From Catenulispora acidiphila DSM 44928 (GTDB lineage Bacteria; Actinomycetota; Actinomycetes; Streptomycetales; Catenulisporaceae), in contig NC_013131.1 of the NCBI RefSeq assembly GCF_000024025.1, positions 1,798,001 to 1,862,000 on the forward strand: a stretch of DNA of 64,000 nt. Reading direction: 5' to 3'. Below, piece after piece: positions 2,568 to 45,926 of this stretch (within the stretch, counting starts at the first letter, position 1; each line of letters starts with the position of its first letter). A program made the translations under genes and the position numbers. A model generated the notes under the pieces. The model was not told the DNA's origin. It searched no databases and saw only the letters and a list, made by a program, of their open reading frames with translations.

Positions 2568-4481
2568 TCAGCCGAAAAGCTCTCCGAGCACGAACTCGTC
2601 GCGCCGGCCGTCGTCCCACGTCGCGACGAGGCAGTCGGCGGTCACCGCGATCGTGACCGGGACCGAGCCAACCGAATCACGCCCCAGCCGATGCGCTGAG
2701 ACATATGTCGTCGGCAACCCCGCAACCGGTTCGGCGGTGAGGTAGGGCGTGGCGCTGTACTCGCCGAACGCGTTGCCACCTTGGAAGCGGGCAACGCCGG
2801 AACCGGTCCAGCCGTGCAGAGGCGTGAGTTCGACGCTCACATCGTCGCCGCGTATCGCAGTGCCCTCAGCAACCGGTTCCTGAGCGCCGGCAACAGCGAA
2901 CGAACCCTCCCGCACCGTCCATCCCGGCGGCGCCGTGACCAGATGCGCACGCAGCTCAATGCCCTGATGAAGTATCGACAGCGCAACCACACGCGCCCCC
3001 GGCACATCGACGCCGCCCATCCGCGGCCGGTACCACGAGGCAGCCCACCTCTCGCCGGTGACCGTGCCGCGCAAGCCCTCACGCCGGCTCGCGCGCCCCC
3101 ACTCGTCGATCAGCGCCAACTGCCCGTCAACGCCTGCGATCCAGGCGTCGCCGACGCCGGGCGCGGTATGCGTGGAGTAGCCGACCGACGCGTAGTGCGG
3201 ATCGCCGCTGCCCGTAGCCGGATCGATGACGTGATCGCTGGCGTGGTTCGCGATCTGCACCACGCCGTCGCCGGAGCGGATCACCCACCCGACGGCATGA
3301 AGGGTTCTGACACAGTCGCCGCGGTCGGCGCGCTCCGACGGCTGCGGCTGTTCCGGTTCGGTCCACAGCGGATGGTCGGCGGGAGCGGCGAGCCCGAGAA
3401 ACCCCATCCCTGCGAAATACGGGGAGCCGGGTCCGCTGTAGACCTGGCACATCGGCAGGAACTGCCTCGAGCTCCAGCCCAACGAGGGCGGCCCGTCGAC
3501 CGCGGCGCCCAACTCCACAGTGAACCGCCGCAGCACGCCGCTAGCCAGACGCCGCGTCGCCCCCGCCGACTCGCTCCCGACTCCAGCGAGCGCGGCGGTC
3601 CACAACCCGCCCAACACGGCGTGCCGATACGTCAGTGACCGTCCCTGATGCAGCGGCGACCCGTCGGCGGCGAACAGCAGCGCGTAGGAGTCGGCGAACT
3701 CGCCCAACCGCCGCAAGTACTGCTCGCGCCGCTCAACGGCTTGCTCAGAGAGCTGATACCACTGCCACAGGAAGGGGTGGATCACCCATGAGTTGTAGTG
3801 GTCGACTCGATTCCCGTGTCCGGTCGTCGGGCCGATCGGACCGTCGTTGTACCAACCGTCGCCGAGATACCAGGACTCGAATACGTCCACGTCCTCCTGC
3901 GCGTGACCGCCGGGAACGTCGTATCCCGCCGAGGTCAGGAACGCCTCGATCACCGCCGTGAACAACAGCCAGTTGTTGTCCGAGCCGTGTTTCACGGCGT
4001 GGTGCGTCAGCCAGTCGGCGGTCTGATCGCGCAGTTTCTCGTCCAGCCGGTCCCACAGCTGCGCACGGCAGACGGCGAGCCCGAAGGCGAGATTCGCGGC
4101 TTCCACGATGGGCTGCGGCGTGCCGTTCCACTGCTTGATCTCGTCTACCCCGATGGCCCGCCCCCACCGGTCCGGGCCATCGGGAGCCATCGCGGCGGCC
4201 AGACCGCGGGCGTACCAGCCCGCGTGGTCGTGCGGGTCCTCGGCGCGGCCCGCCAGCAGGGGAGCCGCTGTCAGGAAGCTGCGAGCGAAGCCCTCGATGC
4301 CGTCGCTGCGGATTCCGGCCGCCGAGGGCCGTCCGGGCGGCGTGATCAGCCCGCCGTCCGGTGAGGCGTGGCGGCGGGCGGTCAGCAGCCAGTGGTCGGC
4401 CACCGCCTCCCAGTGCGCGCGCGTCCAGCCGGTACAGGGGGATAAGCCGCGGTCCTCAGGCGGGAGTCGCAGGTCGTTCAT
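2568..4481 (-). CDS. DUF2264 domain-containing protein
   Basis: 637 residues, no signal peptide. The N-terminal two-thirds ('WTRAHWEAVADHWLL', 'GIEGFARSFLTAAPLLAG', 'NNWLLF', 'WYLGDGWYNDGP', 'VDHYNSWVIHPFLWQW') match the DUF2264 pattern, an (alpha/alpha)6-type fold often encoded beside glycoside hydrolases. The C-terminal part is beta-rich. The ribosome site AGAGGA precedes the ATG. It is the last gene of a leftward run with the ROK regulator and alpha-mannosidase, 27 bp after the ROK gene. That context points to processing of an oligosaccharide, perhaps a uronic-acid sugar, but the reaction is unassigned. Confidence 0.75.
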   Translation of the reverse strand: MNDLRLPPEDRGLSPCTGWTRAHWEAVADHWLLTARRHASPDGGLITPPGRPSAAGIRSDGIEGFARSFLTAAPLLAGRAEDPHDHAGWYARGLAAAMAPDGPDRWGRAIGVDEIKQWNGTPQPIVEAANLAFGLAVCRAQLWDRLDEKLRDQTADWLTHHAVKHGSDNNWLLFTAVIEAFLTSAGYDVPGGHAQEDVDVFESWYLGDGWYNDGPIGPTTGHGNRVDHYNSWVIHPFLWQWYQLSEQAVERREQYLRRLGEFADSYALLFAADGSPLHQGRSLTYRHAVLGGLWTAALAGVGSESAGATRRLASGVLRRFTVELGAAVDGPPSLGWSSRQFLPMCQVYSGPGSPYFAGMGFLGLAAPADHPLWTEPEQPQPSERADRGDCVRTLHAVGWVIRSGDGVVQIANHASDHVIDPATGSGDPHYASVGYSTHTAPGVGDAWIAGVDGQLALIDEWGRASRREGLRGTVTGERWAASWYRPRMGGVDVPGARVVALSILHQGIELRAHLVTAPPGWTVREGSFAVAGAQEPVAEGTAIRGDDVSVELTPLHGWTGSGVARFQGGNAFGEYSATPYLTAEPVAGLPTTYVSAHRLGRDSVGSVPVTIAVTADCLVATWDDGRRDEFVLGELFG

Positions 4482-4508
4482 GCAGTGGTCCTCTTGCTGT
4501 GTGCCGGT

Positions 4509-6773
4509 TCAGGGCGAGCGCCGCAGCCTCGGCGTGAACGTGGAGTGGAAGATCGTCGACGCCGCGCCGACCGCGACCGCCTCGCTGCTGTTCACCGAGC
4601 GCTCGACGCGGATGCGGCGCAAGCGGCGCGCGGTCGGGTAGGCGTTGACCGCGTGCTCGATCTCGGTGAGCCAGACGTCGGCGACCTCGCCGGTGAAGAA
4701 CGGTCCGCCGACCACGACCAGCCCGACGTCCAGCAGGTCGATCACCGACAGCACGCCCCGGCTGACCGCCTTCGCCGCCTGCTGCACGGTCAGCTTCGAG
4801 CGCTGCCGCCCGATCGCGCGCGAGGGATGCTCCGCCGGCGCGTAGCTCCCCGGGTTGCACTCCGGGAGGATCTCCGGCCGTCCGGACTCGTCGAAGCGGC
4901 CCAGCGTGACCGCGCAGAGCTGGCCGAACTCGCCGGCGTTCGCGGTCAGTCCGCGATACAGGTCGCCGTTGAGGAACAGCCCGGTCCCGACGCCGGTGCC
5001 CAGATACAGATACACGAAGTCGCACGCGCGGCTGTCCCGGCCGATCCAGCGCTCGCCGACCGCCGCCGCCGAGCAGTCCTTCTCGATCACGATGCGGCAG
5101 GAGAACCGGCGCTCCAGCAAGGTGCGCAGCGGGACGTCGCGCAGCACCGACATCAGCGGCGGATCGAGCACCGTCCCGGAGACGGTGTCCACCGGACCGG
5201 GGGTCGCCACGCCGATGCCGAGGAACCCCTCCTCCCACCGGCCGTGCCCGGCTTGTTCGAGCACTGTCTCGCCCAGGTCGGCGATCTGGGTCACGACCGC
5301 GCCCGGCCGGGGGTCGGAGGTGATCGGTTCGGACCGCCTGGCGACGACCCGCCCCGAGAGGTCGACCAGCACCGCGGTCAGCACATGCGGGTCGATGTGG
5401 ATGCCCAATGCGTGCGCCGCGCCGTCCCGCAGCCGGACCGGGCTGCTCGGCTTGCCGACGGCGGAATGGCGCTGCCGCTCCTCCACGAGCAGTCCGCGCT
5501 GGATCAGCGAGCGCGCGATGCGGGACACCGACTGTTGCGTGAGCCGGGTGCGCTCGGCGATCTCGCCGCGGGTGATCCGGCCGGCGAGCCGCACCGTCTC
5601 GATCACCACGCACTCGTTGAACGAGCCGAGGTCGATCTGGTTCGCTCCGCCGCCGGTCCCCGGACCGGAATGGCCCGGTGAGGGCAGCGGGAGCGTCGGA
5701 GGCGCGGCGGACGGTGCCGGGAGCGGTTCGCGGATCCAGCGGACCCGCGCCGTTTCCGGGCCGTCGACGTAGCGCGACAGGACCGAGGCGACGTCGAGCA
5801 GCACGCGGGTGGAGGACTCCGGATGCCGGGCGGCGTCCAGGGCCAGCACGGCGCGGGTGAACGAGAGCCCGGTGGTCCGCTCCGGCGGCTGGTGGACGGT
5901 GATCCCCAGATGCGAGCAGCGCTCGGCGATCTGGGTCTGTAACGGCCGCGTGCTGGACGGTTCGGCGCGCAGGATCACGGCGTGCAGTTCCGGCAGCGGG
6001 TGGGTGCGGCGGACGGCGTCCAGGAAGGGACCGACGAAATCGGTGTCGTGGTGGGTGCCGGAGTTGAGCCCGGAGGTGAGTCCGGAACTGAGCCCAGAGG
6101 TAGAGACAGAGCCGGATCCGAAGCCAGGGCCTGGGCCGGCGATCGGCGCGGGCGCCGCGGCTTCGGCCTGCGCGGCAGCCGTCGCCTCGGTCAGTGCGTT
6201 CCCGACAGCTGCCAGCGCGTAGGGATCGACGGCTGGTTCGGCCGAGGGCGGCGGGACTGTCGCGACCGAGCGTCCGGCGAGCACCAGAACCGTGCAGCCG
6301 GCGTCCAAATGCAGCCCGACCGGCCACAGATCGCTCGGCTCCAGCGCGGGGATCACCGGGATCTGCGGCACGGTCAGCCGGCTGCCGGTCAGGTTCCAGC
6401 GGTGCCGGGTCTCGGCGACGACGGTGTGCGAGCAGCCGAGGCGGCGCGCGACCATCCGCGAGGTGCGGGCGTCCGGGGTGGAGGTGAGGATGCTGGCGAC
6501 GATCTCGCCCTCGTCCACCGCCGACGGGCGTCCGGTGCGGGCCCGGTCCAGCAGGCCGTCGAGTCCTTCGACGGCGTAGCGCTTGCGCCAGGTGCTGACC
6601 GTCTGCCGGGAGACGCCCAGGCGCCGGGCGATGTCGGCGTTGCGCAGTCCCTCGGCGGCCAGCAGCACGATCGACGCGCGCAACGCCTGCTGACCGTCGC
6701 CGTCGGCCCACCGGCGCAGCACCGAGTGCCCGTCGGCACCCGGCGCCGCGCCGGAGGAGGGCACCTCACCCAT
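4509..6773 (-). CDS. ROK-family regulator fused to an IS630-like N-terminal region
   Basis: 754 residues, about twice the usual ROK regulator length. Residues 28-130 look like the helix-turn-helix of IS630-type transposases ('GLRNADIARRLGVSRQTVSTWRKRY', 'GLDGLLDRARTGRP'). Residues 149-345 retain weak similarity to the IS630 DDE core but lack the acidic residues. Residues 380-445 are a MarR-like winged helix ('GRITRGEIAERTRLTQQSVSRIARSLIQRGLL'), and 450-740 a ROK domain ('GIGVATPGPVD', 'EKDCSAAAVGE', 'YLGTGVGTGLF', 'NAGEFGQL'). The phosphate-loop DxGxT is absent, so sugar kinase activity is unlikely. The start overlaps the end of the mannosidase gene by 8 bp. It probably senses a sugar and controls this locus. 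Confidence 0.8.
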   Translation of the reverse strand: MGEVPSSGAAPGADGHSVLRRWADGDGQQALRASIVLLAAEGLRNADIARRLGVSRQTVSTWRKRYAVEGLDGLLDRARTGRPSAVDEGEIVASILTSTPDARTSRMVARRLGCSHTVVAETRHRWNLTGSRLTVPQIPVIPALEPSDLWPVGLHLDAGCTVLVLAGRSVATVPPPSAEPAVDPYALAAVGNALTEATAAAQAEAAAPAPIAGPGPGFGSGSVSTSGLSSGLTSGLNSGTHHDTDFVGPFLDAVRRTHPLPELHAVILRAEPSSTRPLQTQIAERCSHLGITVHQPPERTTGLSFTRAVLALDAARHPESSTRVLLDVASVLSRYVDGPETARVRWIREPLPAPSAAPPTLPLPSPGHSGPGTGGGANQIDLGSFNECVVIETVRLAGRITRGEIAERTRLTQQSVSRIARSLIQRGLLVEERQRHSAVGKPSSPVRLRDGAAHALGIHIDPHVLTAVLVDLSGRVVARRSEPITSDPRPGAVVTQIADLGETVLEQAGHGRWEEGFLGIGVATPGPVDTVSGTVLDPPLMSVLRDVPLRTLLERRFSCRIVIEKDCSAAAVGERWIGRDSRACDFVYLYLGTGVGTGLFLNGDLYRGLTANAGEFGQLCAVTLGRFDESGRPEILPECNPGSYAPAEHPSRAIGRQRSKLTVQQAAKAVSRGVLSVIDLLDVGLVVVGGPFFTGEVADVWLTEIEHAVNAYPTARRLRRIRVERSVNSSEAVAVGAASTIFHSTFTPRLRRSP

Positions 6774-38984: not shown

Positions 38985-40514
38985 ATGCCCGACACCGCGA
39001 CCGACAAGACCTACATCGTCCGCACCTACGGCTGCCAGATGAACGTCCACGACTCCGAACGCCTCTCCGGCCTGCTCGAGGGCGCCGGCTACGTGCGCGC
39101 GGCCGATGGTGCCGGCGAGGCGGACGTGGTGGTGCTCAACACCTGCGCGGTGCGGGAGAACGCCGACAACCGGCTCTACGGCAACCTGGGGCACCTGGCC
39201 TCGGTGAAGGCCGGGCGGCCTGGGATGCGGATCGCGGTCGGGGGGTGTCTGGCGCAGAAGGACCGCGGGGAGATCACGCGGCGGGCGCCGTGGGTCGACG
39301 TGGTGTTCGGGACGCACAACATCGGGTCGCTGCCGGTGCTGCTGGAGCGGGCGCGGGTGCGGGACGAGGCCCAGGTGGAGATCCTGGAGTCGCTCGACGT
39401 GTTCCCCTCCACGCTGCCGACGCGGCGGGAGTCGGCGTACGCGGCGTGGGTCAGCGTGTCGGTCGGGTGCAACAACACCTGCACCTTCTGCATCGTGCCG
39501 GCGCTGCGCGGCAAGGAGAAGGACCGGCGGCCCGGCGAGATCCTGTCGGAGATCGAGGCACTGGTCGCCGAGGGCGTGTGCGAGGTGACGCTGCTCGGGC
39601 AGAACGTCAACGCGTACGGGTCGGAGTTCGGAGACCGCGAGGCGTTCGCGAAGCTGCTGCGCGCGTGCGGGCAGATCGAGGGTCTGGAGCGGGTGCGCTT
39701 CACCTCGCCGCACCCCCGGGACTTCACCGACGACGTGATCGCGGCGATGGCCGAGACGCCGAACGTCATGCCCCAGCTGCACATGCCGCTGCAGTCCGGC
39801 TCGGACACGGTGCTGCGCGCGATGCGCCGCTCCTACCGGCAGGACCGCTACCTGGGCATCATCGAGCGGGTCCGCGCGGCGATGCCCGACGCGGCGATCA
39901 CGACCGACATCATTGTCGGCTTCCCCGGGGAGACCGAGGAAGACTTCGAGCAGACGATGCACGTCGTGCGCCAGGCGCGGTTCTCGGCGGCGTTCACCTT
40001 CCAGTACTCCAAGCGGCCCGGCACGCCGGCGGCCACGATGGAGGAGCAGGTGCCCAAGGCGGTCGTGCAGGCGCGGTACGAGCGGTTGGTCGCGCTGCAG
40101 GAGGAGATCTCCTGGGAGGAGAACAAGAAGCAGGTCGGGCGGACCGTCGAGCTGCTGGTCGCCGAGGGCGAGGGACGCAAGGACGGCGAGACCCGGCGGA
40201 TGTCGGGGCGGGCTCCGGACAACCGGCTGGTGCACTTCGCCGTCGGGGACACCGCGGCCGCCGACCTGCCGCGTCCCGGCGACATGGTCTCGGTGGAGGT
40301 CACCTACGCCGCGCCGCACCACCTGAACGCCGACGGTCCGGACGGCGCGAGCGCTATCAAGGCCCTGCGACGTACCCGGTCCGGGGACGCTTGGCAGGCT
40401 CGGCAGGAGCAGCCGGAGTCCGAGCGGCGCGCGGCGGCCGTCACGCTGGGGATGCCGTCGATCGGCAAGCCGGCGGTGTCGGCGGAGGCGGAAAGTGCTT
40501 GCGGCGTCTGCTGA
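38985..40514 (+). CDS. miaB: tRNA-2-methylthio-N6-dimethylallyladenosine synthase MiaB
   Basis: 509 residues. A radical-SAM methylthiotransferase that adds the 2-methylthio group to i6A37 of tRNAs reading UNN codons, using two [4Fe-4S] clusters. The UPF0004 domain carries C17, C54 and C88 ('RTYGCQMN', '[10 protein letters not shown]', 'VGGCLA'); the radical-SAM triad is C162/C166/C169 in '[12 protein letters not shown]'. A C-terminal TRAM domain follows ('[14 protein letters not shown]'). The tail after about residue 455 is variable. Its partner enzyme gene miaA lies 7 kb downstream. Confidence 0.96.
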
Positions 40515-40605: not shown

Positions 40606-43600
40606 TTACTGGTTACCGGACCAGTTGTCAGGACCCGCGGTGTCCACGGCCTTCTTCGCGGCGGCGTCGAGCCACGGCGCGATCTCACTGGACTCCGAGT
40701 GGTTCACGGCCAGCGCCACCGACAGGATGATGTAGCGGTGCTGCTGCTCGCGGTACTGCTTGATGGTGGCCGACTGGTAGTCGCCCTGGCAGGTCGTCGA
40801 GCCGGCACCGCTGCCGGGGCACCAGATGCCGAAGTCGGCAGCGGACTGCTTGGCGAGGTCGTTGTAGACGACGGTCGCGGTGTGCTGGTCGGGCAGCGGC
40901 AGGACCTTGACCGAGACCAGGTACTGGCCGCTGTCGTCGACGAAGCTGGCCGCGATCTCCTTGCTGCAGCTGTTGGAGGTCAGGATGTCCTGCATGTTCG
41001 AGGACATGTCGGTCTGCACGCACGGCTGCACACTGCCAGCCTTGAGCGTGTAGTGCACACCCTTGTCGTCGGTGAACTCCTGCGGCACCAGCGCATTGAG
41101 CTCCAACGGCGTCTTGTCCGTCTGGAACGCGTTGAACTGCGTCGGATCGAACGGCGTGGACGTCAGATCCGGCGGCGAAGCGGCGTCGCTGTCCGACTCG
41201 GTGTCGGTGACATCGTCGCTCGAGGAGTCACTGGCCGAATCGGTCGGACCCGACTTGTCAGAGCTGGACGTCGAGGACCCGGTGGGGAAGTTGGTACTCG
41301 GCACCGACGTCGGACCGTTCGAAGCAGACGAACTCGACGAGTGCCCCACCGCCCCGAGATTGTCAGACGACCCCCCACCATTACTCCGCGTCGCCAGCAC
41401 AACCAGCGACACCACCGCCGCGACCGCCGCCACCGCCCCAACAATGATCGCCGCGGTCTTGCCGCGATTGCCCTTCCCAGGCGGCGGTCCCTGCTGCGGG
41501 AAGTAGGGCGGCTGGTTGGGCGGGTAGGGCGGCTGCCCAGGCCCGGGCCCGACGCCGGCGTTGCCGCCGGGACCCCATGGGCCGGGCGCGGGCTGGGGTC
41601 CGGGACCTGCTTGTGGCCACGGGCCCTGCTGCGGCTGGGGCTGCGGTTGCGGCTGAAGCTGAGGCTGCGGGGATTGCAGCCACGGATTCGGCGCACCGGC
41701 GGACGGCGGAATCGCATCGGACTGGCTCGCCACAGGCGACACGATGTCAGCAGCCTGCGTGGGCGCAACGAAAGGATTAACAGGCGCCGGCTCGGCTTGC
41801 GCAGCCGCGGGAATGGGAAGCGCGCGGGTCGCCGAGTTGTCCGGCGAGGCGATTTCCTGAGTGGAGGACTCGGGAACCGCGTCGGCGCCGGCGATCAGGG
41901 GAACCTGGCGAGTCGCTTGGCTGTCGGCATCGGCTGCCGGGACTGCGTCGGCGATCAGGGGAACTTGGCGAGTCGACTGGCTGTCGGAATCGAGCGCCGA
42001 GACCTGCTGGGTGGCTCTGTCATCGGCATCGGCTGCGACCAGAGGAACCTGGCGGGTGGAGTCGCTGTCGGTGTCGGCCGCCGGAGTGTCATCGGCAGCA
42101 GCGATCGGAGTGGACTCGCTGGTGTCGGCATCGGCTGCCGGGATTTCGGCGGCGGCCGCGACCAGAGGGACCTGGTGAGTGGGCTTGTCGCTGGTGTCCG
42201 AGCCGGTCTCTGAGTCAGAGTCCGCGTTGGCGGCCGAGCTGGTGTCCGAGTCCGAGCCTGAGCCAGAATCGGTGTCCGAGCTGGTGTCCGAGTCCGAACT
42301 GGCTTCCGAGTCGACGGTATCCGAGTCGGTGTCGGCGTCCGAGTTGGCGGCCGAGCTGATGTCCGAATCCGGGTCCGAGCTGGCGGCCGAATCCGAGCTG
42401 ATGTCCGAGTCCGCATCCCAGCTGGCGGCCGAGTCGATGTCGGTATCCGAGCCGGTGCCGGTGTCCGAGTCGATGGCCGTGTTGGCGTTGGAGTCGGAGC
42501 TGGGGCTGGAGGCGCTGTCCGAGTCCGAGTCGGTATTGGCGTCCGGGCTGGCTTCGGTGTCGGTTTCCGAGCTGGCGTCCGTGTCCGAGCCAGTGTCCGA
42601 GTCCGTGTCGGCATCCGAGTTGGCGGCCGAGCTGGCTTCGGTGTCGGTGTCGGTGTCTGAGTCAGTGTCCGAGCTGGAGCTGGAGGCGCTGTCCGAGTGT
42701 GAGTCGGTGTTGGCATCCGAGCTGGCTTCTGAATCGGTGTCGGCGTCGGAGCTGAGGTCGGAGGCGCTGTCCGTGTCCGAGCCGGAGTCGGTGTCGGAGC
42801 TGAGGTCGGCGCTCGAGTCGGAATCCGTGCCTGAGCCCGAGTGCTCGCCATCGCCATCGCCATCGCCATCGCCATCGGCGTCGTCAGAGGCAGCGGCAGC
42901 CTCGTTCTCGCCGGTCTCGGCGAGGAGGTCGGCGGGCGACATGGGCTGGGTGGCGTCGTTGGGGTCGTCGGGTTCGGGGGTGGGGGCTTCTTCGGCTGCT
43001 GCGGCGCTGGCTGATTGGGCTTCGTGGAGGGCGTCGGGTGCGTGGGGGGGTTCGAGGGGGGCGCCTAGGCGGGTGAGTTCGGTGATGGTGCGGTCGATTG
43101 TTGTTGTGCGGTCGGGTTGGGTGTTGTTCAGGGTGGTGAGCAGGGTGGTGAGGGTGGGTTGGCGGGGGGGTTGGGGGGTGTCGGGGCCTTCGGCGGCTAG
43201 GTGGAGGGCTGTGGCGAGGGTGGGGAGGTCGTTTTCGTTTGTTTCTATGGGGAGGAGGAGGACTTGGCCGTCGTCGGTGAGGAGGATGTGGTCGGCGGCG
43301 GGGGAGATGCGGGGGCCGGGTGCTGATATTGCTGTGATGGCGCCGGCTGCTATGAGGAGGATTTGTTCGGCGGGGAGGGCGCCCCATTGGGTGACGGCGT
43401 CGGCTAGGGTGCGGGCCGGTATGGGGTCGGCTACTAGCCAGGCGCCTGCGTCGCCGGTTGCTGTGCCGGTGACGGGGAGGGTGCCGGTGCGGTTGCGCCA
43501 GCGGTGGGGGTCGAGGGGGTTGGTGACGGCGGGGTCGGGCGTGGTGGGCGCCTCGGTGGTCGTGCCGCTGTCGCTGGTGCCGTCGGTGTTGTCGTGGTCT

Positions 43601-43749
43601 GGCTCGGTCGTGATCGGGACCAGCACCACGTCGGTGCCGTCGATCTCGTCGTGCGCGCGCCACGCCGGTCCCAGCGGCTCGCTGGTCCGGTACCTTCCGG
43701 CGACCAGATCCCCACTTTGTACGGACAAGGCCCCGCCCTCCCTCGTCAT
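40606..43749 (-). CDS. Membrane pseudokinase-like protein with Ser/Asp-repeat stalk
   Basis: 1047 residues. Residues 13-240 resemble the kinase domain of the next gene ('GDLVAGRYRTSEPLG', 'GALPAEQI', 'HILLTDDGQVLLLPIE') but lack the Gly-loop, the VAIK Lys, HRD and DFG. Residues 288-521 are Ser/Asp/Thr/Ala repeats; 523-645 hold repeated T-R-Q-V-P-L motifs; 690-760 are Pro/Gln-rich; one membrane helix follows (765-788); and the outside domain has C910, C928, C977 and C987, matching the neighbour. It may be a regulatory or docking partner of the adjacent kinase. It starts 65 bp after the kinase stop, same strand. Confidence 0.75.
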   Translation of the reverse strand: MTREGGALSVQSGDLVAGRYRTSEPLGPAWRAHDEIDGTDVVLVPITTEPDHDNTDGTSDSGTTTEAPTTPDPAVTNPLDPHRWRNRTGTLPVTGTATGDAGAWLVADPIPARTLADAVTQWGALPAEQILLIAAGAITAISAPGPRISPAADHILLTDDGQVLLLPIETNENDLPTLATALHLAAEGPDTPQPPRQPTLTTLLTTLNNTQPDRTTTIDRTITELTRLGAPLEPPHAPDALHEAQSASAAAAEEAPTPEPDDPNDATQPMSPADLLAETGENEAAAASDDADGDGDGDGDGEHSGSGTDSDSSADLSSDTDSGSDTDSASDLSSDADTDSEASSDANTDSHSDSASSSSSDTDSDTDTDTEASSAANSDADTDSDTGSDTDASSETDTEASPDANTDSDSDSASSPSSDSNANTAIDSDTGTGSDTDIDSAASWDADSDISSDSAASSDPDSDISSAANSDADTDSDTVDSEASSDSDTSSDTDSGSGSDSDTSSAANADSDSETGSDTSDKPTHQVPLVAAAAEIPAADADTSESTPIAAADDTPAADTDSDSTRQVPLVAADADDRATQQVSALDSDSQSTRQVPLIADAVPAADADSQATRQVPLIAGADAVPESSTQEIASPDNSATRALPIPAAAQAEPAPVNPFVAPTQAADIVSPVASQSDAIPPSAGAPNPWLQSPQPQLQPQPQPQPQQGPWPQAGPGPQPAPGPWGPGGNAGVGPGPGQPPYPPNQPPYFPQQGPPPGKGNRGKTAAIIVGAVAAVAAVVSLVVLATRSNGGGSSDNLGAVGHSSSSSASNGPTSVPSTNFPTGSSTSSSDKSGPTDSASDSSSDDVTDTESDSDAASPPDLTSTPFDPTQFNAFQTDKTPLELNALVPQEFTDDKGVHYTLKAGSVQPCVQTDMSSNMQDILTSNSCSKEIAASFVDDSGQYLVSVKVLPLPDQHTATVVYNDLAKQSAADFGIWCPGSGAGSTTCQGDYQSATIKQYREQQHRYIILSVALAVNHSESSEIAPWLDAAAKKAVDTAGPDNWSGNQ
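41815..42183 (-). repeat. Repeated T-x-Q-V-P-L motif in pseudokinase
   Basis: Within residues 523-645 the protein shows THQVPLV, STRQVPLV, ATQQVSAL, STRQVPLI, ATRQVPLI and ATRALPI, separated by Asp/Ala-rich linkers of 10-30 residues. Each has Thr with a Val or Leu at +3, the spacing seen in many bacterial phospho-Thr/FHA ligands. Confidence 0.65.
42187..42888 (-). repeat. Ser-Asp dipeptide-rich low-complexity coding repeat
   Basis: About 234 codons reading mainly Ser, Asp, Thr and Ala, preceded by (GD)n. At DNA level it is a degenerate hexamer-type array of GAC/TCC/TCG codons, prone to length change. It resembles Sdr/clumping-factor stalks of Gram-positive bacteria in composition only. Confidence 0.85.
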
Positions 43750-43769
43750 CAGGTCCCTGCTGTCTGGAG

Positions 43770-43811
43770 TTACTGCACCGCTCTTACTGCACCGCTCTTA
43801 CTACACCGCTG
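43770..43811. repeat. 14-bp tandem repeat, three copies
   Basis: TTACTGCACCGCTC occurs perfectly at 43770-43783 and 43784-43797, then with two changes at 43798-43811. It fills most of the 65-bp gap between the kinase stop and the pseudokinase start. Confidence 0.9.
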
Positions 43812-43814
43812 CTG

Positions 43815-45926
43815 TCACTGCGTCGCGACCTGGGGTCCGCCTTGCTTCGCCGCGCTGGTGGCGGCGGGGGTGAGCCAGGTCAGCGCGGACTTGTCCTTCG
43901 TGAGGTTCACGTAGAGCGACACGGCGTGGACCAGGTACCGGTGGTCGGGCTGGATGTAGCCGTACTGCTCGGCGTCGCCGGTGGTCTTGTCGGACGTGCA
44001 GATGTCCGCGCCGGGCCCGCTCTTGGGGCACCAGATGCCCCAGTCCTCGACCGTGAACGCGCTCTTGGCCTGCATGTCCTTGAACGCCGTCTGCGCCGTC
44101 GAGGCGTCCGCCAGCGGCAGCACCGCTATGTCGACCATGACGCGGCCGGCGCTGTCGGTGTACGTGCCGATCGCCTGGTCGGCGCACTTGTACTGGGTCA
44201 GCATGGCCTTCAACCGCGTGCTCTCGTAAGAGTTGACGCACTTGTCGGTCCAGCGGTTGGTCGCCGTGTAGACGACGCCCTTGGAGTCCGTGAACGACAC
44301 CGGCAGCAGCGAGTCGGGGTCGAACGTCGTCTGGTCCGTCGAGGACGAGTCCCAGCTCGCCGGGTCCGTGACGGCGTCCGAGCTCTGCGTGTCCGAGTCC
44401 GACGGGCTCGAGGGCTGCGAGGAGTCCGGGCCGTTCACCGGCGCCGAGGACGTCGTGGATCCCGAGGACGGCGCCGAGGAATGCGGCACGGAAGCCGAGG
44501 TCGGGGCGGTCGGCGGGGGCGGGGTCGCCTTGTCGCTCTTGCCGCCGCCGGACAGGGCGATCGCCGCGACGACGCCGCCGACCACGACCAGCGCGCCGAT
44601 CGCGAGGCCGACGTTGCGACCGGTGTTGTCCTTCCGCGTGGGCATCGGGCTGGTCTGGAAGCCAGGACCGAAACCGGGACCAGGACCAGGACCGAAACCG
44701 GGACCGTTGCCCGGGCCCATCGGGCCCATCGGCATCGAACCACCCGGGCCGCCCGGCCCGTAGGGACCAGGACCCCCAGGACCAGGACCGAAAGGCATAG
44801 CCTGCGGCGGATAAGGAGTCTGCGACCCCCCGCCCGGACCGCCCATCGGACCACCCATCGGACCGACCGCGTCAGCGGCCATCGTCGCCGGCGCCGTGGA
44901 GACCGGGAAAGGCGTTCCCGTCCCAGGAGTGTTCGCGCCCCGAGGGCCCGGAACCGTAGCCCCCGGCGTACTGCTGTCCCCGTTCGTCCCGGCCACCATC
45001 GTCGACGGCACGAACGGATTCGGCGTGCCGCCGGACCCGGGTATCGCCTCCCTCAGCGTCCCCGAACTCGGCGTCGCCCCGCTCAGCCGCTCCAGCTCCG
45101 GACGCGCCCGCGCCGCGGTCCAGCGCGCCGCGGGGTCCTTCGTCAGCAGCCCGCTGATCAGCGGCGCCAGCGCGGGCACCCGCGTGACCGGCGCCGTGTC
45201 CTCGAACAGGATGGCCGTCAGCACCCCGACCGCCGTGTCGCGCATGAAGGGGGAGCGCCCCTCGGCCGCGTAGTACAGCGTCGCGCCGAGCGAGAACAGG
45301 TCCGAGGCGCCGTCGCTGGCCTCGCCGCGGGCGCGCTCGGGCGCCACGAACTCCGGGGAGCCGACCAGGACGCCGGAGGCCGTCATGGTCAGGTCGGCCT
45401 CCTGGACCGCGATGCCGAAGTCGGTGAGCAGCACCCGGCCGTCGGTGGTGAGCAGCACGTTCGCCGGCTTCACGTCGCGGTGCAGGATGCCCGCGGCGTG
45501 GCTGGCGGTCAGCGCGTCCAGCACGCCGAGGCCGATCTTGGCGACCTGCTCTTGGGGCAGCGGGCCGAACTGCTCGACGGCCTGCATCAGGTTCTGCGAG
45601 GGGATCAGGTCCATGATGATCCACGGCAGCCCGCGGTCGGAGACCATGTCGTGCACCGAGACGATGTGCGGGTGGTTGCGCATCCGCGCGGCGTTGCGGG
45701 CCTCGCGCTGCGCCCGCGCGAGGCGCTCGGCGCGCTCGCTGTCCGAGAGCATCGGCGGCAGCCAGACCTCCTTGACCGCCACGTCGCAGTCCAGCGCCTC
45801 GTCGTGCGCCTTCCAGACGCGCCCCATGCCGCCGGCGCCCAGCCGTTCCACGAGCCGGTACCGCCCGGCTACCAGGATCCCCTCCACGCCGTGGCTGTCC
45901 TGCTCGTTGTCGTGTTCCCCAGCCAC
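43815..45926 (-). CDS. Transmembrane Ser/Thr protein kinase, PknB-like
   Basis: 703 residues. The kinase domain (about 18-280) is intact: Gly-loop 'LGAGGMGRVW', K52 in 'VAVKEV', 'ILHRDVKPANVLL' (D151, N156), 'LLTDFGIA' (D169), 'GSPEFVAPERARG' activation/P+1 loop. A Pro/Gly-rich linker (360-425) leads to one membrane helix (about 438-458), a Ser/Thr-rich stalk and an extracytoplasmic domain with C563, C581, C633 and C643. There are no PASTA repeats, so the sensor domain differs from cell-wall-binding PknB. GTG start with GGAGGGG upstream. Likely substrates include the downstream pseudokinase, by inference. Confidence 0.93.
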   Translation of the reverse strand: MAGEHDNEQDSHGVEGILVAGRYRLVERLGAGGMGRVWKAHDEALDCDVAVKEVWLPPMLSDSERAERLARAQREARNAARMRNHPHIVSVHDMVSDRGLPWIIMDLIPSQNLMQAVEQFGPLPQEQVAKIGLGVLDALTASHAAGILHRDVKPANVLLTTDGRVLLTDFGIAVQEADLTMTASGVLVGSPEFVAPERARGEASDGASDLFSLGATLYYAAEGRSPFMRDTAVGVLTAILFEDTAPVTRVPALAPLISGLLTKDPAARWTAARARPELERLSGATPSSGTLREAIPGSGGTPNPFVPSTMVAGTNGDSSTPGATVPGPRGANTPGTGTPFPVSTAPATMAADAVGPMGGPMGGPGGGSQTPYPPQAMPFGPGPGGPGPYGPGGPGGSMPMGPMGPGNGPGFGPGPGPGFGPGFQTSPMPTRKDNTGRNVGLAIGALVVVGGVVAAIALSGGGKSDKATPPPPTAPTSASVPHSSAPSSGSTTSSAPVNGPDSSQPSSPSDSDTQSSDAVTDPASWDSSSTDQTTFDPDSLLPVSFTDSKGVVYTATNRWTDKCVNSYESTRLKAMLTQYKCADQAIGTYTDSAGRVMVDIAVLPLADASTAQTAFKDMQAKSAFTVEDWGIWCPKSGPGADICTSDKTTGDAEQYGYIQPDHRYLVHAVSLYVNLTKDKSALTWLTPAATSAAKQGGPQVATQ

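Follow-up and report, generated by a model that had tools for sequence, protein, structure and literature searches.

Transmembrane pseudokinases of actinobacteria are already known as the families ActPs1-3 (PMC12599244), and according to the same 2025 review the conserved families of bacterial pseudokinases have unknown functions, while the two transmembrane examples that it explains, MviN and EssB, belong to other machines. In M. tuberculosis, PknB phosphorylates the tail of the pseudokinase domain of MviN/MurJ (Rv3910, a member of ActPs3), which FhaA then reads (PMC12599244, PMC6180346), and the phosphorylated juxtamembrane linker of PknB also binds FhaA (PMC12077195). The inactive receptor HER3 is likewise phosphorylated on its tail by its active partner, HER2, and recruits an effector (PMC13259870). 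The words 'extracellular', 'tandem' and 'adjacent' are absent from the text of the review (PMC12599244), and none of the open-licence titles and abstract beginnings listed reports a dead twin paired with any receptor Ser/Thr kinase of bacteria. The nearest bacterial parallel among the matches listed is the pseudokinase form of ChrS from C. glutamicum (PMC9491836), a bacterial sensor kinase that, as at the locus described here, has a paralogue and occurs in a pseudokinase version, which for ChrS alters signalling; unlike our case, ChrS is a histidine kinase of another fold, and its pseudokinase form apparently represents variation in a single gene as opposed to a dead twin that is fixed.

The locus lies in a 64,000-nt stretch of the Catenulispora acidiphila DSM 44928 genome, called the window, and comprises the following features:

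38985..40514 (+), miaB (Radical_SAM + UPF0004), convergent neighbour and landmark only, 88-97% identical in nine other genomes of the genus
40606..43749 (-), receptor pseudokinase, 1047 aa, ATG start (open reading frame; BLASTP to the neighbour; alignment)
40609..41142 (-), outside domain of the pseudokinase, residues 870-1047 (conserved across the genus)
41395..41454 (-), single transmembrane helix of the pseudokinase, residues about 766-785 (hydropathy maximum 2.87)
41455..43059 (-), cytoplasmic juxtamembrane linker of the pseudokinase, residues about 231-765, with eight T-[QRH]-x-[VILM] candidate phospho-docking sites (motif count, register test)
43042..43749 (-), kinase-like N-domain of the pseudokinase, residues 1-236 (alignment, phmmer and tree, model, Foldseek)
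43815..45926 (-), receptor Ser/Thr protein kinase, 703 aa, GTG start (Pfam Pkinase match, 1e-40; alignment)
43818..44324 (-), outside domain of the kinase, residues 535-703, homologous to that of the pseudokinase (BLASTP; conserved across the genus)

Comparisons included this genome (G000), nine others of the genus Catenulispora (G001-G009) and four of its family (G010-G013).

Architecture, catalytic loss and descent

An earlier note on this DNA had described two open reading frames of common architecture; both are at the coordinates given there, and two BLASTP blocks bore out homologous ends with the parts in the same order. Both genes are on the minus strand, the kinase gene first and the pseudokinase gene 65 bp downstream; no promoter- or terminator-like match was found in the 65-bp gap, which is weak evidence in such a GC-rich genome. 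The kinase protein is ordered as a kinase domain (residues about 16-280), a linker, one transmembrane helix, a Ser-rich stalk and the outside domain. The first BLASTP block covers the transmembrane helix, stalk and outside domain (33% identity, E 1e-30) and the second the N-domain (34% identity, E 2e-16). In the alignment the kinase domain has every catalytic motif; it matches NF033483 (PASTA kinase) with E 3.7e-67, below that model's cut-off and over the kinase domain only, and the PASTA domain that would define such kinases is absent from the Pfam matches of both proteins. A genome-wide profile search returned 52 Pkinase matches in the 10,467,782 bases of the genome, the pseudokinase not among them, and a Pfam search with the latter gave no match at E<=10; a pseudokinase of this kind can escape Pfam annotation altogether.

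The extent of the loss was examined in an alignment of the N-domains of nine pseudokinases (the window copy and eight others of the genus) and ten kinases. In all nine pseudokinases five residues of the Gly-loop are gone, the beta3 Lys of VAxK is replaced by Val or Ile, the HRD loop has given way to a four-residue gap with no HRD, and about 33 residues are deleted from DFG to past the APE region, that is, the activation segment; part of the C-lobe is also missing. Since these losses are common to all the aligned copies, they are older than the members of the genus compared. The losses proposed in the earlier note (Gly-loop, VAIK Lys, HRD Asp and DFG) thus hold and extend further, to the HRD loop and activation segment, and the framework strings that it had recognised (LVAGRYR, GxLPxEQ and LLTxDGxVLL) are kept across the genus. 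The alphaF string AAEG is also kept in the nine copies, extended to AAEG[RH]SPF in L081, L082 and L083, and the seven copies not cut by a contig end retain the last helix (ELxRL). Judged by eye on the alignment, conservation within the domain is highest in the beta1-beta2 and hinge-alphaD segments.

Structure prediction of the N-domain, the check proposed for its assignment as a kinase relative, returned a kinase fold (AF2, pLDDT 83, pTM 0.79), from an alignment of ten rows (A6) of which seven are kinases, which leans the model. This alignment takes in four of ten matches that a wider profile found in a viral collection, where no close kinase relatives were found. Foldseek with the model matched 1167 PDB chains at E<=0.001, the best 50 of which are all kinases or the MviN domain, with TM (query) values of 0.46-0.60. 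The first rank is the kinase homology domain of Rv3910 (MviN; 3uqc_A, E 2.0e-7, TM 0.59), nearly tied by Stk1 (2.1e-7 vs 2.0e-7), a tiny margin at an rmsd of about 6 A, and the fifth rank is the MviN domain in complex with FhaA.

The pseudokinase has the features by which ActPs3 is defined, namely complete motif loss, deletion of the activation loop and, as in many members of that family, a transmembrane helix after the domain (PMC12599244). Like MviN, it is a membrane-tethered dead kinase fold with an activation-loop deletion; in MviN, an FHA domain recognises the flanking tail once this has been phosphorylated in trans (PMC12599244). The MviN domain, however, belongs to a lipid II flippase protein, whereas here the dead domain is part of a receptor with an outside domain common to the kinase next door; furthermore, the candidate docking sites form a multi-site array, and the domain groups with the subfamily of the neighbour kinase. 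In a tree of 55 domains, from which published ActPs3 sequences were absent, the pseudokinase falls away from the long branch of L179, a protein of this genome encoded directly downstream of a MurJ/MviN gene. L179 (4778-6577, +) has a kinase-like domain without HRD and DFG and a hydrophobic helix, and perhaps represents the MviN pseudokinase in split form. EssB/YukC of type VII secretion is comparable in that it is a transmembrane pseudokinase with a degraded Gly-loop and a short activation loop, and it acts as a scaffold (PMC12599244); unlike the receptor, it is part of a secretion machine, and the review's account of it mentions no active twin (PMC12599244).

Searches within the genome point to the neighbour. 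Using tblastn with the pseudokinase domain, the neighbour kinase came first (E 3.3e-12) and the next kinase reached 1.8e-5, and by phmmer against the neighbour and the ORFs around the other Pkinase matches it was the sole match (E 2.1e-13). In the 55-domain tree the pseudokinases form one clade (100/100) on a long stem (1.4), placed inside the subfamily of the neighbour kinase (99/96) and sister to the neighbour at a weak support of 84/43. These results support, at the level of sequence, a non-catalytic receptor derived from a kinase and situated beside an active relative. Duplication of the whole receptor, as suggested in the earlier note, is likely and the simplest reading; the sister support in the N-domain tree is weak, and the tree of outside domains, nearly a star, neither backs nor opposes it.

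Threonine motifs in the pseudokinase linker

The linker of the pseudokinase contains repeated stretches with TQPMS, TRQVPL, TQQVP or TRALP. Occurrences of T[QRHKEV]x[VILM] were counted and their expectation obtained by shuffling; the expression was written after reading two linkers, those from the window and G003, and for that reason a neutral spacing test was added. There are eight sites in the window linker versus 0.5 expected, and 9, 10, 7, 7 and 3 in those from G007, G009, G005, G006 and G003, respectively, and three in the second piece of G004, counts that are inflated by repeat duplication within linkers. The linkers of the partner kinases have no site in eight of nine genomes and one in the ninth (G003), so that within the pair the array belongs to the pseudokinase. 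As controls we used 47 other kinase-bearing ORFs of the genome, which are the phmmer matches to the window kinase in stretches around other Pkinase matches and not all 51: 25 have no site, 12 have one, eight have two, one has four and one has five, and five ORFs, with two to five sites, reach p<0.05. Some of these control linkers are mis-set, either through a merged domain that ends too far downstream (e.g., L154, L168, L143, L170 and L159) or, when no transmembrane helix was found, because all of the protein past the domain was counted as linker.

In the register test, V/I/L/M at +3 from Thr was enriched in six of seven pseudokinase linkers (p 0.001-0.028), the neutral T..[VILM] not being significant in that of G003 (p 0.13); without Met, five of the seven remained enriched and two were not significant. 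No enrichment appeared at Thr +1, +2 or +4 in any of the seven, at Ser +3 in any pseudokinase linker, or in the nine kinase linkers. Mycobacterial sites that depend on PknA are preceded by acidic residues and have Leu/Val at +3 (PMC7164672), and the residue at pT+3 adds to FHA binding (PMC5549992). In the relatives upstream acidity is higher at motif sites than at other threonines, and in the window copy hardly so (2.1 vs 1.9 acidic residues in the six upstream positions); the preferences of PknA sites for Pro (+2) and basic (+4) residues are unmatched by most linker sites.

The window linker also includes a block of 221 residues rich in Ser (33%) and Asp (26%), encoded at 42187-42849 (-), whereas in five relatives Ser makes up 4-11% of the linker over its first 280 residues; none of the eight motif sites is inside the block. 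SD-rich NCBIfam matches (MSCRAMM ClfB and others) were rejected, as they fall in this low-complexity cytoplasmic linker. The contigs of G002, G008, G004 and G001 end inside the pseudokinase gene, and perhaps such linker repeats lie behind these ends.

An array as a general trait of proteins with this outside domain was considered and rejected, since among 38 others, for which the last 300 residues before the transmembrane helix were examined, significance was reached only by L103 and L106 (p 0.003 each). One or two sites occur in L102, L112, L108, L127, L056 and L057, and none in the other 30. L103, L106 and L102 (family f19, from G183, G246 and G269) are receptors without a kinase that carry a distant version of the outside domain and, in the cytoplasmic linker, DATQxVPP-type sites (three, three and one); they are possibly stand-alone phospho-docking receptors.

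The genome has 12 FHA matches and the 64-kb window none, so no FHA partner is named. At L134 (G000:C1:1591800-1600000), an FHA match (1593152-1593379) lies on the opposite strand some 0.5 kb upstream of two adjacent kinases.

The earlier note had left the non-catalytic partner as an allosteric co-receptor, decoy or scaffold; its non-catalytic kinship beside the kinase holds, and the linker array favours a phospho-docking scaffold. The chances that the pseudokinase is such a scaffold and is served mainly by the neighbour kinase appear to us evenly balanced. The two receptors, with their related outside domains, would sit side by side in the membrane, a heteromer that we infer from these domains and the linkage only. 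Engagement of the outside domains by a presumed signal would lead the active kinase, or some other cellular Ser/Thr kinase, to phosphorylate the linker threonines, and the phosphorylated T-[QR]-x-[V/M]-P/S sites would act as a docking array for FHA-domain proteins, with a presumed downstream effect. Catalysis would then reside in one protein and docking in the other, unlike in the PASTA kinases (PknB/StkP/Stk1), the candidate sites here being on the dead twin and not on the kinase. The pseudokinase domain would survive as a fold without an active site, perhaps to hold on to the kinase; tight binding of the kinase by the surface of the N-domain would have led one to expect better conservation than that of this domain, the lowest among the parts compared.

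Linkage and selection on the pair

Kinase and pseudokinase are adjacent on one contig in nine of the ten genomes of the genus, and in the tenth (G001) the kinase and the outside domain are at two contig ends, which hides adjacency and does not contradict it. The pseudokinase is flanked by miaB in all ten. Its N-domain gave strong matches (E<=4e-43) in nine of the ten, and was not seen in the 70 other relatives among the 80 genomes searched, which yielded weak matches (best 2.4e-7) or none. As for adjacent co-occurrence across actinobacteria, raised as a check in the earlier note, the linkage is consistent and no unlinked homologues appeared, the pseudokinase having been seen in one genus only.

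The linker array could be served by a different kinase, and the pseudokinase might be an independent phospho-acceptor receptor of other kinases whose adjacency is a relic of duplication; the 52 Pkinase matches leave many candidates, and the TQxVP arrays of kinase-free receptors from another family (L103, L106) would need a kinase in trans. We regard such independence from the neighbour as very unlikely with adjacency held in nine of ten genomes.

Identity to the window across the genus is 84-93% for the kinase domain (nine loci), 67-82% for the kinase outside domain (eight loci), 50-68% for the pseudokinase N-domain (eight loci) and 82-95% for the pseudokinase outside domain (nine loci), which is near the 88-97% of miaB (nine). 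The better-kept half is thus reversed, being the kinase domain in the kinase and the outside domain in the pseudokinase. For 15 pairs from six genomes, dN/dS was 0.13-0.33 for the kinase domain, 0.12-0.49 for the kinase outside domain, 0.17-0.62 for the pseudokinase domain and 0.15-0.53 for the pseudokinase outside domain. The pseudokinase is under purifying selection (dN/dS <1 in 15 of 15 pairs), weakest in its N-domain. A decaying pseudogene with a low-complexity linker might account for the faster divergence of the N-domain relative to the kinase domain and for the 221-residue Ser-Asp block, but it is barely conceivable and was rejected on the high identity of the outside domain and on dN/dS in every pair, together with a frame that is open in all six complete copies.

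In a further reading the pseudokinase domain would act as a switch for the active kinase domain by binding to it, in the manner of HER3 towards HER2/EGFR (PMC13259870), and the linker threonines would be incidental. It would fit the retention of a kinase-like N-lobe, modelled at high confidence, whose beta1-beta2 and hinge-alphaD segments are the best kept by eye. However, no other domain compared is as poorly conserved as the N-domain, which has also lost the activation segment and part of the C-lobe, and neither the +3-specific array nor its absence from the kinase is explained; we consider such an allosteric role unlikely.

A stronger form of the docking proposal, to which we hold somewhat less than to its negation, is that an active kinase and its dead twin form one receptor and evolved independently into a pair like HER2/HER3, the twin providing a phosphothreonine array for FHA docking and the better-conserved sensor. 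As in HER2/HER3, two homologous receptors would be involved, one of them catalytically dead. Unlike those, this pair concerns Ser/Thr and not Tyr and has a single compact outside domain, so that the likeness would be convergent; HER3 keeps its ATP site, whereas the pseudokinase has lost the motifs for one. If this were true, the splitting of catalysis from docking between paired receptors arose also outside animals, and a small soil-bacterial system would be at hand in which its logic is testable.

The outside domain beyond the pair

The outside domain is more widespread than the gene pair. That of the pseudokinase is present in all ten genomes of the genus at an identity of at least 82%, and the six named records with it are all from Catenulispora or Catenulisporales. 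Two family members (G012, G013) have one kinase-free protein each with the domain, and the other two lack it. Of 394 genomes in the class, 46 matched its profile, a count that takes in this genome; beyond it G406 was the only strong match (2.9e-58), the rest being at 3e-11 or weaker. Seven plasmid records contain the domain, all below 60% identity; the five listed carry the annotation of Streptomyces Ser/Thr kinases.

The occurrence of this outside domain on proteins without a kinase, both within the genus and beyond it, would suit a receptor that senses or sequesters a ligand and so tunes the kinase, its cytoplasmic part being a passive anchor, and so would the conservation of this domain, which is far better than that of the N-domain and of the kinase's own outside domain. 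Neither a dead kinase fold under purifying selection nor a motif array is what one would expect a passive anchor to preserve, and we judge a ligand-binding or decoy receptor of this kind distinctly unlikely.

A third membrane protein of this genome (L087, 4526-5719, -; G000:C1 about 211516-212499) is kinase-free and combines the outside domain with a Pro-rich cytoplasmic part, and a similar protein exists in G007 (L089). L182 of G406 (3304-4923, -) has the outside domain (E 7e-60) and an N-domain unmatched by the kinase profile.

The model of the outside domain was poor (pLDDT 57.8). Its best Foldseek match was the extracellular domain of PknH (PknH_C, 4esq, prob 0.89, E 0.039), and assignment to PknH_C (PF14032) was rejected despite this hint, with an hhalign probability of 3.5; PF14032 was not among the Pfam matches of 15 family members scanned. 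Pfam offered nothing better than E 0.13 for the window domain, and DUF7373 was touched by three of the 15, its C-terminal part by two, with E 0.0008 or worse. In G008 the outside domain is found on a different kind of kinase (L088, 2632-4716, +), 37% identical to the window kinase, and hence the domain has probably moved between kinases.
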